Positions 40,939-54,600 of a stretch of 64,000 nucleotides of DNA are shown piece by piece. Source of the DNA: Sipunculus nudus (taxonomy: Eukaryota; Annelida; Sipuncula; Golfingiida; Sipunculidae); contig CM049319.1 in NCBI GenBank assembly GCA_026874595.1, positions 12,985,601-13,049,600 on the forward strand, read 5' to 3'. The translations under genes and the position numbers were made by a program. The notes below the pieces were generated by a model, which worked only from the letters and a program-made list of their open reading frames with translations, was not told where the DNA came from and did no database searches. Each line of letters starts with the position of its first letter. Position 1 is the stretch's first letter.

Positions 40939-42247
40939 TTAGGCCCTCAGCCCTTATGCTGATGGGCTATTGTCGACACCCAAGCTGTCTGTCCGTCGGT
41001 CTGTCCCGCGTCCGTTAACTTTTACCTTGTGAGCGGGATATCTCTAAAAGGATTCACCGTCAGAATTTTATTTCCTCGGTAAAGATGTATATCAACAAAA
41101 TCTCAGTCAAGTTCGAAGATGGGTGACCTTGACCTATTTTTCTACATTTTAGAGCTGATTATAGAAAAACACATAGACGCTTATTACTCAGGAACCATTT
41201 GGTGGATTTTCACAAAACTAACTTTGATTATTTGGACTGACAGTCTGTACCTGCTACACAAGTTTGGTGGCTCCACCTATAATTTCTGATTTTTAATGAA
41301 TTTTTATTGGATTTTTCAACTTTGGGCTTGTGAGTGGGATATCTCTAAAAGGATTCACCGTAGGAATTTTATTTCTTCGATGAAGCTGTATATTGACAAA
41401 ATCTTGGTCAAGTTCGAAGATGGGTGACCTTGACCTATTTTTCTACGTTTTAGAGCTGATTATAGAAAAACTCTTAGAAGCTTATATCTAAGGAACCATT
41501 GGGTGGATTTTTACCAAACTTACTAAGGTCATTTGGACTGAAAATCTGTACCTGCTCCACAAGTTTGGTTGCGCCATCTACAATTTCTGATTTTTTACAA
41601 ATTTTTATCGGATTTTTCAAATTTGGCCTTGTGAGCAGGATATCTCTATAGGATTCACCACAGGAATTTTCATTTTTTGGTGATTATGTATATAGACAAA
41701 ATCTTGGTCAAGTTCAAAGATGGGTGACCTTGACCTAATTTTCTACATTTTAGAGCCGATTACGGACAAATACTTAGAAGCTAATTTCTCAGGAACCATT
41801 GGATCTTGCTATGATCATTGGGACTGATGGTCTGTACCTGCTGCACAATTTTTGGGGCACCACCTACTGTTTCTGATTTTTAATGAATATTTATTAGATT
41901 ATAAACTTTGGCCTTTTGTGCAGGATATCTCCAAAGGTATTCAACACAGGAACTTCATTTTTTCAGTGCTATTGCATATTTACAATATTTTGGTAAAATT
42001 TAAAGATAGGTGTTCTTGACTGACTTATCAAGGTCACAGAGCTTAGAATAGAAAATAACTTAGGAGCTTATTTCTCAGGAAGCATTTAGTGGATTGTTAT
42101 GAAACATGGTATATACCTCTCCAATTTAAATCTATAACTAAGACATGTACATCCGAATGACAACAAATTTTTTACTTGTTACTGTTACCACCTATAAACA
42201 CTGTTCTTTTGGCTGAGGGCTTTTATCAGCTTTTGCTTATATTCTAG
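40939..42247 (+). mobile_element. Helitron-like element family G (four ~300-bp monomers) downstream of GH3 gene
   Basis: 'gatatctctaaaaggattcacc' recurs near 41037, 41337, 41638 and, diverged, 41926. GCCCTCAGCC at 40943-40952 is inverted as GGCTGAGGGC near 42211-42220. The 3' end is TATATTCTAG|T at 42247, with GCTGA..TCAGC able to form a stem upstream. The exact 5' base is uncertain. Lies 0.43 kb after the GH3 stop, so it may be transcribed in the 3' UTR. Confidence 0.7.
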
Positions 42248-42249
42248 TT

Positions 42250-51600: not shown

Positions 51601-54600
51601 TGTCTTTCATGAAATTTTCTATGTTTAGGGTCGTAAAACAATCAAAAGTAGGTCAACCGGGATGAAACGCAAACTCGATCTGTAACTGTCATTATCTGCC
51701 CACACAAAAAAAATCAGGGTGGTATCTGCAGGCATTGAGGAAAACAAGTCAGTACATATGCATTTGTTATGAAAATTTATATTTTTCATGAAACTTTCTA
51801 TGTTCAGGAGCAGTCAAATGGTCAAAAGTAGGTAAACTGGGACAAAACAAGAACTCGATCTGTAACTGGTCATTATCTGCCTACACACCAAAAATCAGGC
51901 CCGTATCTGCAGGCACTGCGAAAAAAAAGTCCATACATGTGCACCTTTTTATGAAATTTTCTATGTTAGAGCACCGTCAAACGGTCAAAAATAGGTCAAC
52001 TGGGACAAAACATGAACTTGATCTGAAACAGGTCATTATCTGCCCACAAACCAAAAATCAGGCTAATATCCACAGGTTTTGTTAAAAAAACTCTGTACAA
52101 GTGTATTTGTCATGAAAATATATATTTTACATGAAATTTTCTATGTTTAGGAGCCGTAAAACAGTCAAAAGTAGGTCAACCGGGACGAAATGCAAACTCC
52201 ATCTGTAACTGGTCAATATCTGCCGACACACCAAAAATCAGGCAAATATCTGCAGGCATTGCAGAAAAAGTCCGTACATGTGTATCTGTCATGAAATTTC
52301 ATATTTTTCATGAAATTTTCTATGTTCAGGAGCCGTAAAACGATCAAAAGTAGGTCAACCGGGACGAAACGCGAAATCGATCTGTAACTGGTCTATATCT
52401 GCCCACACAACAAAAATAAGGCCAATATCTGCAGGCATTGCGAAAAAAAGTCTGTACAAGTGTATCTGTCATGAATATTTCTATTTTTCATGAAATTTTC
52501 TAAGTTTAGGAGCCGTAAAACAGGCAAAAGTAGGTCAACCGGGACGAAACGTGAACTCGATCAGTAACTGGTCTATATCTGCCCACACACCAAAAATCAG
52601 GCCAATATCTGCAGGCATTGCGAAAAAAAGTCTGTACATATGTATCTGTCATGAATATTTCTATTTTTCATGAAAATTTCTAAGTTTAGGAGCCGTAAAA
52701 CGGTCAAAAGTAGGTCAACTGGGACGAAACGCGAACTCGATCTGTAACTGGTCTATATCTGTCCACACACCAAAAATCAGGCCAATATCTGCAGGCACTG
52801 CAAAAAAAAATCCGTACATGTGTATTTGTCATGAAATTTCATATTTTTCATGAAATTTTCTATGTTCAGGAGCCGTAAAACGGTCAAAAGTAGGTCAACC
52901 AGGACGAAACGCGAACTTGATCTGTAACTGGTCTATATCTGCTCACACACCAAAAATCAGGCCAATATCTGCAGGCATTGCGAAAAAAAGTGCGTACATG
53001 TGTATCTGTCATGAATATTTCTATTTTTCATGAAATTTTCTAAGTTTAGGAGCCGTAAAACGGTCAAAAGTAGGTCAACCGGTACAAAACGCGAACTCGA
53101 TCTGTAACTGGTCTATATCTGCCCACACACCAAAAATCAGGCCAACATCTGCAGGCATTGCGAAAAAAAGTCCGTACAACTGTTTGATTTCGGAATGACG
53201 GAATGACGGACATGGGTAAAACTATATGCCCCGGCCACTTTGTGGCGGGGGCATAAAAAACAAGCAGAAAACAGACATACGGAACTGACAATAATAGTAC
53301 CTTTGTCATCTGGCAGAGCAAGAGGTAAAAAATCGGTAGAGTCAATACTGAAATTTGCAGAGTATGTTGTTAACTGATATGCATGAAAACTTTAGATCAG
53401 TTTCTTACAAGATTTTGAACCTGAGGTATCAGCTTTTCAATGGTTTGTTTATTTACATTTCTAAAATTTCATCAAACACTGGTGGCCAAAACTGGATATA
53501 ATCAGTTGTTTCTGAACTGATTATGCTGCATCTACAATTCCTGGGAATTCCTTAGTTCAAGGAAGTGTTAAACTCTTGAAATGCATATTTTCTCCAGTAC
53601 TTAAACTGATAAAATAAACAGCATGGCATGGCAAGTCTATGGTAAGATTTACCTGGAGGATTCCATGCTGAGAGGATAATCCTGCGATCATTAGGGTTAG
53701 TTTTTATCTGATTGATGATCTCACTAAGCTGATCCACGCCTTTTCCTGTGTAGTCAGCATGCATGTCTGTGTACTCTGCTCCGAAATGACGCCACTGGAA
53801 CCCATACACAGGCCCCAGGTCACCTGAAACCGGATGATGAGCTATAAACAGGATCGGGCTGGAACAACTTTTATATATTCATTACTGACCTTAGCTGGTA
53901 TTAGGAAACCATTATCAATGGATCTGTTTGGAAGTGATAAAATCAAATGGGACATTCTTTGAAACTAGTATCTGATGAGAGGCTGCGAGATATTCAGTTT
54001 ACTGTTAATGCGTGTTGCATGGAAAACACTGCAATAAAAACATTAAGGTTATAATGGAGTATTTAAGGCAGATAAAATTCTGCTGGAACATCTTCCCTTG
54101 TTGAAGGCTTCATAACCATGGTTTGTATGATGGAAATGGAACTGGCAAGGCTGCTGCTAAAATGGCATGATCTTGCCCTGTAAGAAGCAGATAAAACTGC
54201 TAAACACATTTTACAGGTTCTCTTTTCTTGTCATAAATGATCATTGAACCTTGGCCAATGAATGTTATAAAGGTAACACAGTTTCAAGCATCCAGTGAAA
54301 ATGAACTTCATCAGTTTTTCCGTGATGAATTTGGAAAATTCCAGGGAAGTTCTTTTGTGGATGTCTACACCACGGCAAATAATCCAGCTGATATGTTGTT
54401 TGTATGCAGGTCAAAATATAGCAGACTCCTCACTTTCCTTTTTGGGCCCATGAAATTCAAGGATATTTGGAACTTTTTTCGAATTCCCAAACAGAAAAAG
54501 GGAAAATCATCTTCCAGGCTTTCCCTCAGTTCCAGATAGGCTGTGAACCTTGGGTAATCAGAATCAACATTTTTCAAGACAACCAGCTCTGAAAAACCTT

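Follow-up and report, generated by a model that had tools for sequence, protein, structure and literature searches.

What are the blocks of tandem repeats that lie side by side, and in one case one inside the other, in this part of the Sipunculus nudus genome, and how did they arrive there? The window considered here is the whole 64,000-nucleotide stretch of contig CM049319.1 (assembly GCA_026874595.1, positions 12,985,601 to 13,049,600, forward strand). It contains five minisatellite families (A, B, C, D and G), located where a first-pass annotation of the sequence had placed them. As that annotation stated, their monomer cores are unrelated, being mutually without significant similarity (best cross-family E value 0.013). 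The strongest core periods are 301 bp in G, 278 bp in A, 323 bp in D, 334 bp in C and 180 bp in B; the unit of 140 bp annotated for A is about half of the 278-bp unit, beside which weaker lags are seen at 149–151. The blocks are very probably HINEs, that is, non-autonomous Helentrons, which carry the tandem repeats as cargo and are moved in trans.

Element ends and their fixed boundary

Copies were sought in the genome assembly (1.43 Gb, 153 contigs), the 40 best of 4,927–9,174 candidates being scored. With the window copies included, the loci compared numbered 8 for A, 30 for B, 13 for G and 13 for D, and for C there were 12 three-prime ends and 8 five-prime sides. Read in element orientation, all families have the same layout. 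The 5′ end consists of a run of Ts, a subterminal inverted repeat (subTIR), a complementary inverted repeat (IR) and a microsatellite of the (GCC)n, TCCG or GTCTGTTT type, followed by the tandem core, while the 3′ end consists of a subTIR, a hairpin, CTAG and then T. CTAG is present in 8/8 copies of A, 29/30 of B and 12/12 of the G copies that have a 3′ end, and in 8/10 of such copies of D and 8/12 of C. A T follows directly in 8/8 (A), 29/30 (B), 11/12 (G), 10/10 (D) and 12/12 (C). Across the genome, the exact A end occurs with CTAGTT 4,797 times and with CTAG plus a base other than T 36 times (CTAGT plus non-T is in neither count); for the exact B end, CTAGT occurs 2,775 times against 20 for CTAG plus non-T. 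Reversed-pattern controls gave no genome-wide matches for either A or B. The flanks of 29 B copies drop to a chance-like identity of 0.23–0.41 from the 7th base on the 5′ side and the 4th base on the 3′ side, and five Ts precede ATGCCCC in 28 of these 29 copies. The earlier observation that the blocks end in CTAG followed by T therefore holds over many copies, while the matching suggestion of an A just before the element is only partly borne out: the 5′ boundary is the T-run itself, and the preceding A, found before the first T in most copies of A and D, is common but not fixed.

Since CTAG occurs 110 times in the 64-kb window, the motif alone is little proof, and the evidence lies in a boundary that is fixed over many copies. 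This abundance is what would favour satellite arrays that grew in place and acquired CTAG and hairpins by chance. Such an origin is already refuted, and its probability is negligible, because thousands of copies have the same exact end, against none for the reversed pattern, and identity falls at the same base in unrelated flanks.

The copies in the window are as follows; G lies on the plus strand and the other four families on the minus strand.

40939..42247 (+), family G HINE: T-run, 5′ subTIR GCCCTCAGCC, IR and TCCG-type microsatellite; about 3.6 repeats of 301 bp; 3′ subTIR at 42211–42221, hairpin, CTAG at 42244–42247
46290..47439 (−), family A HINE: 3′ CTAG at 46290–46293; 5′ end TTGTATCCGCC at 47429–47439; core of 2.8 × 278 bp; part of the 5′ IR/(GCC)n segment is missing
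48044..49101 (−), family D HINE: 3′ CTAG at 48044; hairpin GGCACC-TGC-GGTGCC; subTIR TGTATCCCCAGACAA; 5′ end TTGTATCCCCAG at 49090–49101; core period about 323
50248..51364 (−), family C HINE, 3′ part: CTAG at 50248; hairpin; subTIR GGCAAGC; 334-bp repeats
51365..53256 (−), family B HINE nested in C: 3′ CTAG at 51365; hairpin GTGTCG-TTC-CGACAC; 180-bp repeats; TCCG-type microsatellite, IR, 5′ subTIR ATGCCCCCGCC at 53244–53254; T-run from 53255
53259..53293 (−), remnant of the C 5′ left flank beyond B: ACAGACATACGGAACTGACAATA; the terminal subTIR and IR of C are missing here

Two further pieces of these families are present. A second, more diverged copy of A occupies about 9695–10560 (+), with TTATTCTAG|TT at its end, and a piece of C lies at 2–852 (+), with repeats at 2–625 and GGTCTAG|TTTT near 843–852.

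Every family has subTIRs of 10–15 bp plus an IR; the window copy of C lacks the 5′ subTIR. The pairs are GCCCTCAGCC/GGCTGAGGGC in G, ATGCCCCCGCC/GGCGGGGGCAT in B, TGTATCCGCC/GGCGGATACA in A, TGTATCCCCAGACAA/TTGTCTGGGGATAC in D and GCTTGCCGGAA/TTCCGGCAAGC in C. The 3′ hairpins have the arms GTAGTCG..CGACTAC (A), GTGTCG..CGACAC (B), ATCAGC..GCTGAT (G), GGCACC..GGTGCC (D) and CGACC..GGTCG (C), with one mismatch each in the window copies of A, C and G. Inverted repeats had been annotated in A, B, D and G, and hairpins in A, B and D. All of these are real, but C has inverted repeats as well, which went unnoticed because its window copy lacks the 5′ end, and both G and C have a hairpin. C copies outside the window begin with a T-run, GCTTGCCGG and IR, and end in TTCCGGCAAGC, the CGACC/GGTCG hairpin and TCTAG|T. 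Families A and D have closely related ends (TTGTATCC.., GGATAC, TTCTAG) around unrelated cores.

Pairing in the C-type hairpin is conserved: over 16 ends, three of the five pairs show changes on both sides (with a single sequence behind each), a value reached in none of 500 shuffles, and 92.5% of the cells are paired. These 16 come from the 18 of 19 C-type ends that could be read (L091 had no subTIR match), after omission of L081, which is identical to L078, and of L087, where a one-base shift would leave the outer cell unpaired.

Target sites and unoccupied relatives

Complete pairs of ends were compared for 7/8 loci of A, 29/30 of B, 10/13 of G and 7/13 of D. Target-site duplications, which the first-pass annotation had named as a finding that would speak against its reading, were not seen at these junctions, where direct repeats consist of Ts or are absent in 51 of the 53 pairs. 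The two exceptions are TTA in one G copy and a D insertion inside a TTA microsatellite. Among the sequences compared, an unoccupied relative was found for 15 of 52 joined junctions (A 7, B 29, G 10, D 6; the mis-paired G_L049 is counted in the 52 and was not matched), so that the proposed check for empty sites had a positive outcome. Some of these empty sites are neighbouring tandem copies at the same locus (L056 and L057 within-locus), and two, both for G, are in the window itself. Relative to the best empty match, the occupied site has two extra Ts in five cases and one in three; the other seven cases give 4, 7, 5, 0, 3, 7 and −3, with junction alignments that are not clean. The simplest reading is that an element starting with about two Ts and ending in CTAG was inserted in T-rich DNA without duplication. 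Terminal Ts are described as hard to assign in Helentrons and HINEs too (PMC4067079).

The inverted repeats near both ends might also suggest cut-and-paste DNA transposons with terminal inverted repeats, similar to miniature inverted-repeat transposable elements (MITEs), and some HINE-like repeats were indeed once annotated as MITEs (PMC4067079). Given the lack of target-site duplications and the asymmetry of the ends, this explanation is highly improbable.

An autonomous Helentron with the ends of family C

The first-pass annotation had proposed a search for an autonomous Rep-helicase element with the same termini. Such an element was found for family C, and none for A, B, D or G among the four Rep-helicase loci scanned for their ends. 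Genome-wide there are at least 143 matches to Helitron_like_N (150 of 195 candidates scored), at least seven of them in open frames of more than 2,200 aa. The partner of C (C4:36163192-36187215) is 24,024 bp long with an open reading frame (ORF) of 2,216 aa. A copy on C8 is 93% identical to it over 7.2 kb and encodes a protein of 2,237 aa (P0001) with the Pfam domains OTU, DUF6570, Helitron_like_N, PIF1 and Exo_endo_phos, which include the Helentron set of Rep, PIF1 helicase and C-terminal endonuclease. Rep motif 2 has an S between G and P (RGSPHxH), reading RIEFQARGSPHAH in P0001 and RVEFQQRGSPHIH in P0002, the protein of another Rep-helicase locus (L053). This S and the endonuclease domain are given as marks of Helentrons in PMC4067079.

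On one side, the homology between the C4 and C8 copies ends at a C-type CTAG end. On the other, it reaches a C-type 5′ end in C4; in C8, another C-type insertion breaks the copy within the stretch read. The 24,024-bp Helentron, an autonomous element, and family C thus have both ends in common. The Helentron also has repeats of its own, namely in-frame repeats of 69 bp within the ORF, a 319-bp array, and arrays of 325–331 bp related to the C core. When its CTAG end was used as query, 12 other places in the genome matched from base 80–84, CTAG beginning at base 86, and at nine of them Helitron_like_N follows 7.8–16.3 kb on, on the same strand. For proximity, 64 of the 143 Rep-helicase matches were typed, and the full list was checked for the three left ends without a partner. 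Outside the 12 there were a 38-base match from base 80 (C14:65007632) and many matches internal to the query.

Some Helentrons are reported to carry an RPA gene. Beside the main ORF, an ORF scan over 19.9 kb of each copy showed two overlapping or antisense ORFs of 104–147 aa per copy and no further long one, and it included no profile search for a spliced RPA gene. An array downstream of the L039 ORF was at one stage taken for a plus-sense 3′ tail, a reading that was given up once CTAG was seen to mark the left end.

Two Helentron Rep proteins have in-frame coding repeats in their N-terminal part, of 69 bp in L039 (263–650) and of 63 bp in L053 (1105–2011). P0002 has an N-terminal Herpes_teg_N match (PF04843) where the C partner has OTU, and by this match the region is perhaps an alternative cysteine protease domain. 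In the window, positions 19706–20012 are about 77% similar to a non-coding region upstream of the ORF of the autonomous Helentron and are probably a fragment of that Helentron.

Canonical Helitrons start with TC, end in a 3′ hairpin and CTRR, insert between A and T and have no inverted repeats. PMC4067079 contrasts these features with those of Helentrons. Of the canonical features, the elements described here show the 3′ hairpin with CTAG and then T, and families A and D also mostly have A before the first T. However, the 5′ end is a T-run and subTIR rather than TC, subTIRs and IR are present in every family, and the C partner has the endonuclease domain and the RG-S-PH motif, which are Helentron marks (PMC4067079). 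Because of these features, the Helitron-like architecture of the earlier annotation, although shared by all five families, is assigned to the Helentron type, and it is very unlikely that the elements are canonical Helitrons.

Tandem arrays: cargo or growth

An alternative role for the repeats would be that rolling-circle transposition itself makes or lengthens them, in the core or at the 5′ end, as had been suggested for these families. Some changes in length do exist. Complete copies of B are 1,714 to 2,418 bp long, with about 8 and about 9.6 units in some, and of the two autonomous loci one has 5.7 units of the 319-bp array and the other 2.0. Array lengths thus change, though not at every move. 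On the other hand, the arrays of A and B are as conserved between copies as the unique ends (array/ends 0.960/0.958 over 7 copies of A and 0.952/0.964 over 26 copies of B), while units within one copy match at only about 81–85%, and the seven complete A copies have 2.7–3.0 units each, a count biased to the window's length. It follows that the arrays mostly travel whole. The comparison used 7 copies of A, 10 of G and 26 of the 29 complete B copies (those under 1,950 bp). Growth of the array at each transposition, as proposed from the window alone, is not supported in the copies compared. Growth at the 5′ end is a separate matter, for which the C-type elements provide the evidence.

Rows of 5′ ends and nesting

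The 5′ end of the autonomous element (query C4:36162901-36163601) best matches 39 other places, where the long match stops at base 412–433 with 97–100% identity over about 410 bp; this identity indicates a very young C-type subfamily, moved recently. At 18 of the 39, one to four further matches to the last 60–100 bases lie just past the 5′ end. All four such places that were read out (L097–L100) contain rows of 6, 5, 6 and 4 exact GCTTGCC starts. Each start opens a 5′ end of about 55–75 bp (T-run, subTIR, IR and TTTG-type microsatellite), arranged head to tail. Both places read that have no extra matches (L101, L102) have a single start. In L102 the 5′ end comes directly after the 3′ hairpin and CTTG of another element, and within the autonomous locus on C8 two 5′ ends stand one after the other.

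A plant Helitron model predicts several 5′ ends for a single 3′ end (PMC12628747), and the three nearly identical adjacent units in L098 also favour repetition by the rolling circle. However, the units in one row are different variants between the arms (e.g. AATCAAAGATT, AAATCTTCGATTT, AAGATTTCC), the innermost being the young variant, as successive insertions predict. The mixture is accounted for by repeated nested insertion at least as well as by rolling-circle repetition. Taking cores and 5′ ends together, we consider it improbable, though less so than the other alternatives, that rolling-circle transposition makes or lengthens the tandem repeats.

As annotated, B is nested in another element: it sits in the left-flank microsatellite of C, and its two flanks, once joined, can be aligned with no target-site duplication to left flanks that carry no insertion (L088, L089). 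Another C-type 3′ end is found in this microsatellite at four of the eight C 5′-side loci (L087, L090, L091, L092), of which L091 and L092 had been chosen because their matches ran on, and twice at the C8 locus. Insertion there would leave a 60-bp 5′ stub outside and the CTAG end inside, so the rows and the internal CTAG ends may be one process. We tentatively propose, at somewhat less than even odds, that C-type Helentrons and HINEs target themselves, new copies entering the T-rich left-flank microsatellite of resident ones, that minisatellites are stacked by this nesting, and that the C minisatellite comes from the 24-kb element. Such insertions would leave 5′ ends of about 60 bp in a row on one side and push unrelated tandem arrays apart on the other. 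If true, self-insertion would explain rows of multiple 5′ ends without rolling-circle repetition and could make HINEs with two arrays, like those of the oyster. Self-stacking of C-type elements is possibly new, and with the mixed rows of 5′ ends it can be tested directly whether stacked arrays are made by nested self-insertion or by rolling-circle repetition.

Proposed mechanism

For the five families as HINEs, movement could proceed as follows. The Rep-helicase-endonuclease of a Helentron would act in trans, recognising the subTIR ends and the 3′ hairpin. It would nick after CTAG, and the element would be copied through a single-stranded intermediate in rolling-circle fashion and inserted into T-rich host DNA (T|T or A|T) with no duplication of the target. 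The tandem core, as cargo, would be copied largely unchanged, its length shifting by slippage or recombination. Families A, B, D and G are presumably served by the same protein as C or by a related one.

Several observations weigh against this reading. CTAG is exact in only 8/12 copies of C and 8/10 of D. The ORF of the C partner starts on the side of the CTAG end and is read in the direction of the 5′ subTIR end, against the 5′-to-3′ sense of the HINEs, an orientation (minus) that is also described for Helentron-Da-40 (PMC4067079). Three of the 12 CTAG-end places have no Rep-helicase match within 30 kb. A scan of four Rep-helicase loci (L039, L040, L053, L054) gave no end motif of A, B, D or G, and L053 and L054 (ORFs of 2,419 and 2,298 aa), a second Rep-helicase group considered as a partner, were rejected, as they share little more than the ORF and about 35 bp and have no ends that could be recognised. 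Copies of G resemble each other less in the array than at the ends (0.897 against 0.933, 10 copies), and the array comparison as a whole is biased, since scoring of the best 40 favours the array length of the window and the three B copies over 1,950 bp were omitted. Lastly, 18 of the 39 places best matched by the 5′-end query have extra 5′-end matches.

Comparison with known elements

The oyster Crassostrea gigas has 11 HINE elements, the Cg_HINEs, with satellite-like cores, several of them unrelated in both core and ends (PMC7492417), so the use of one machinery by several monomer families, put forward earlier as the new point, had already been published. HINEs with this architecture, with cores unrelated to one another and with no target-site duplication are likewise described in PMC4067079 and PMC7492417. 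By description, the left flank in the oyster elements consists of 5′ subTIR, IR and microsatellite (GTCY, GTCC or GTCK in several), followed by a satellite-like core and a right flank of 3′ subTIR and palindrome (PMC7492417). They likewise have a T-rich or TT target without duplication, and some share ends despite unrelated cores, A and D here resembling group 2 of the oyster HINEs (PMC7492417). Differences are that the oyster cores are mostly 140–180 bp, against 180–334 bp here, that CTAG does not appear in the main text of PMC7492417, and that the oyster elements could not be linked there to an autonomous Helentron, whereas C is linked to one here. Elements inserted within other elements are described for the oyster in a review (PMC12628747). 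Pearl (CvE), DTC84 and MgE of bivalves also have short tandem cores and are classed as HINE-like in PMC7492417, the likeness again being one of description.

DINE-1 and Helentron-Da-40 of Drosophila ananassae have subTIR, IR, 3′ stem-loop, TT target and variable terminal Ts in common with the present elements, and there too a HINE and an autonomous element share ends, with a Rep-helicase-endonuclease oriented as in the C partner (PMC4067079). The C partner differs in its length of 24 kb, its own minisatellite arrays and its CTAG end. Proto-Helentron-Pi of Phytophthora infestans agrees in 5′ TT, 3′ CTAG and the lack of target-site duplication, but is described as without an endonuclease domain, which the C partner has (PMC4067079). 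Plant Helitron arrays (Xiong et al. 2016, cited in PMC12628747) have rows of 5′ ends, with several 5′ ends and one 3′ end; in contrast, adjacent 5′ ends here differ in variant, and their breaks lie in the T-rich microsatellite, which serves other elements as a target.

The C partner therefore supplies what PMC7492417, as far as its account extends, lacked: an autonomous Helentron with the ends of a minisatellite-carrying HINE. No link of a bivalve HINE to an autonomous Helentron was noticed in a literature search that left most subscription journals outside. The picture from the oyster is extended to another genome, the rest being mostly ordinary for the class. With the partner at hand, it becomes testable whether the arrays were born in an autonomous element or captured later, and which protein moves the elements.

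Other features of the window

Families A, D and C with its nested B lie between exons of a minus-strand gene, which we take, by eye from its translation, to be that of thymidylate synthase. Positions 1925–2479 and 6130–6701 form an inverted pair of another dispersed repeat, 74% identical, and a different dispersed repeat family occurs at 1476–1731, 28442–28797 and 55209–55498.

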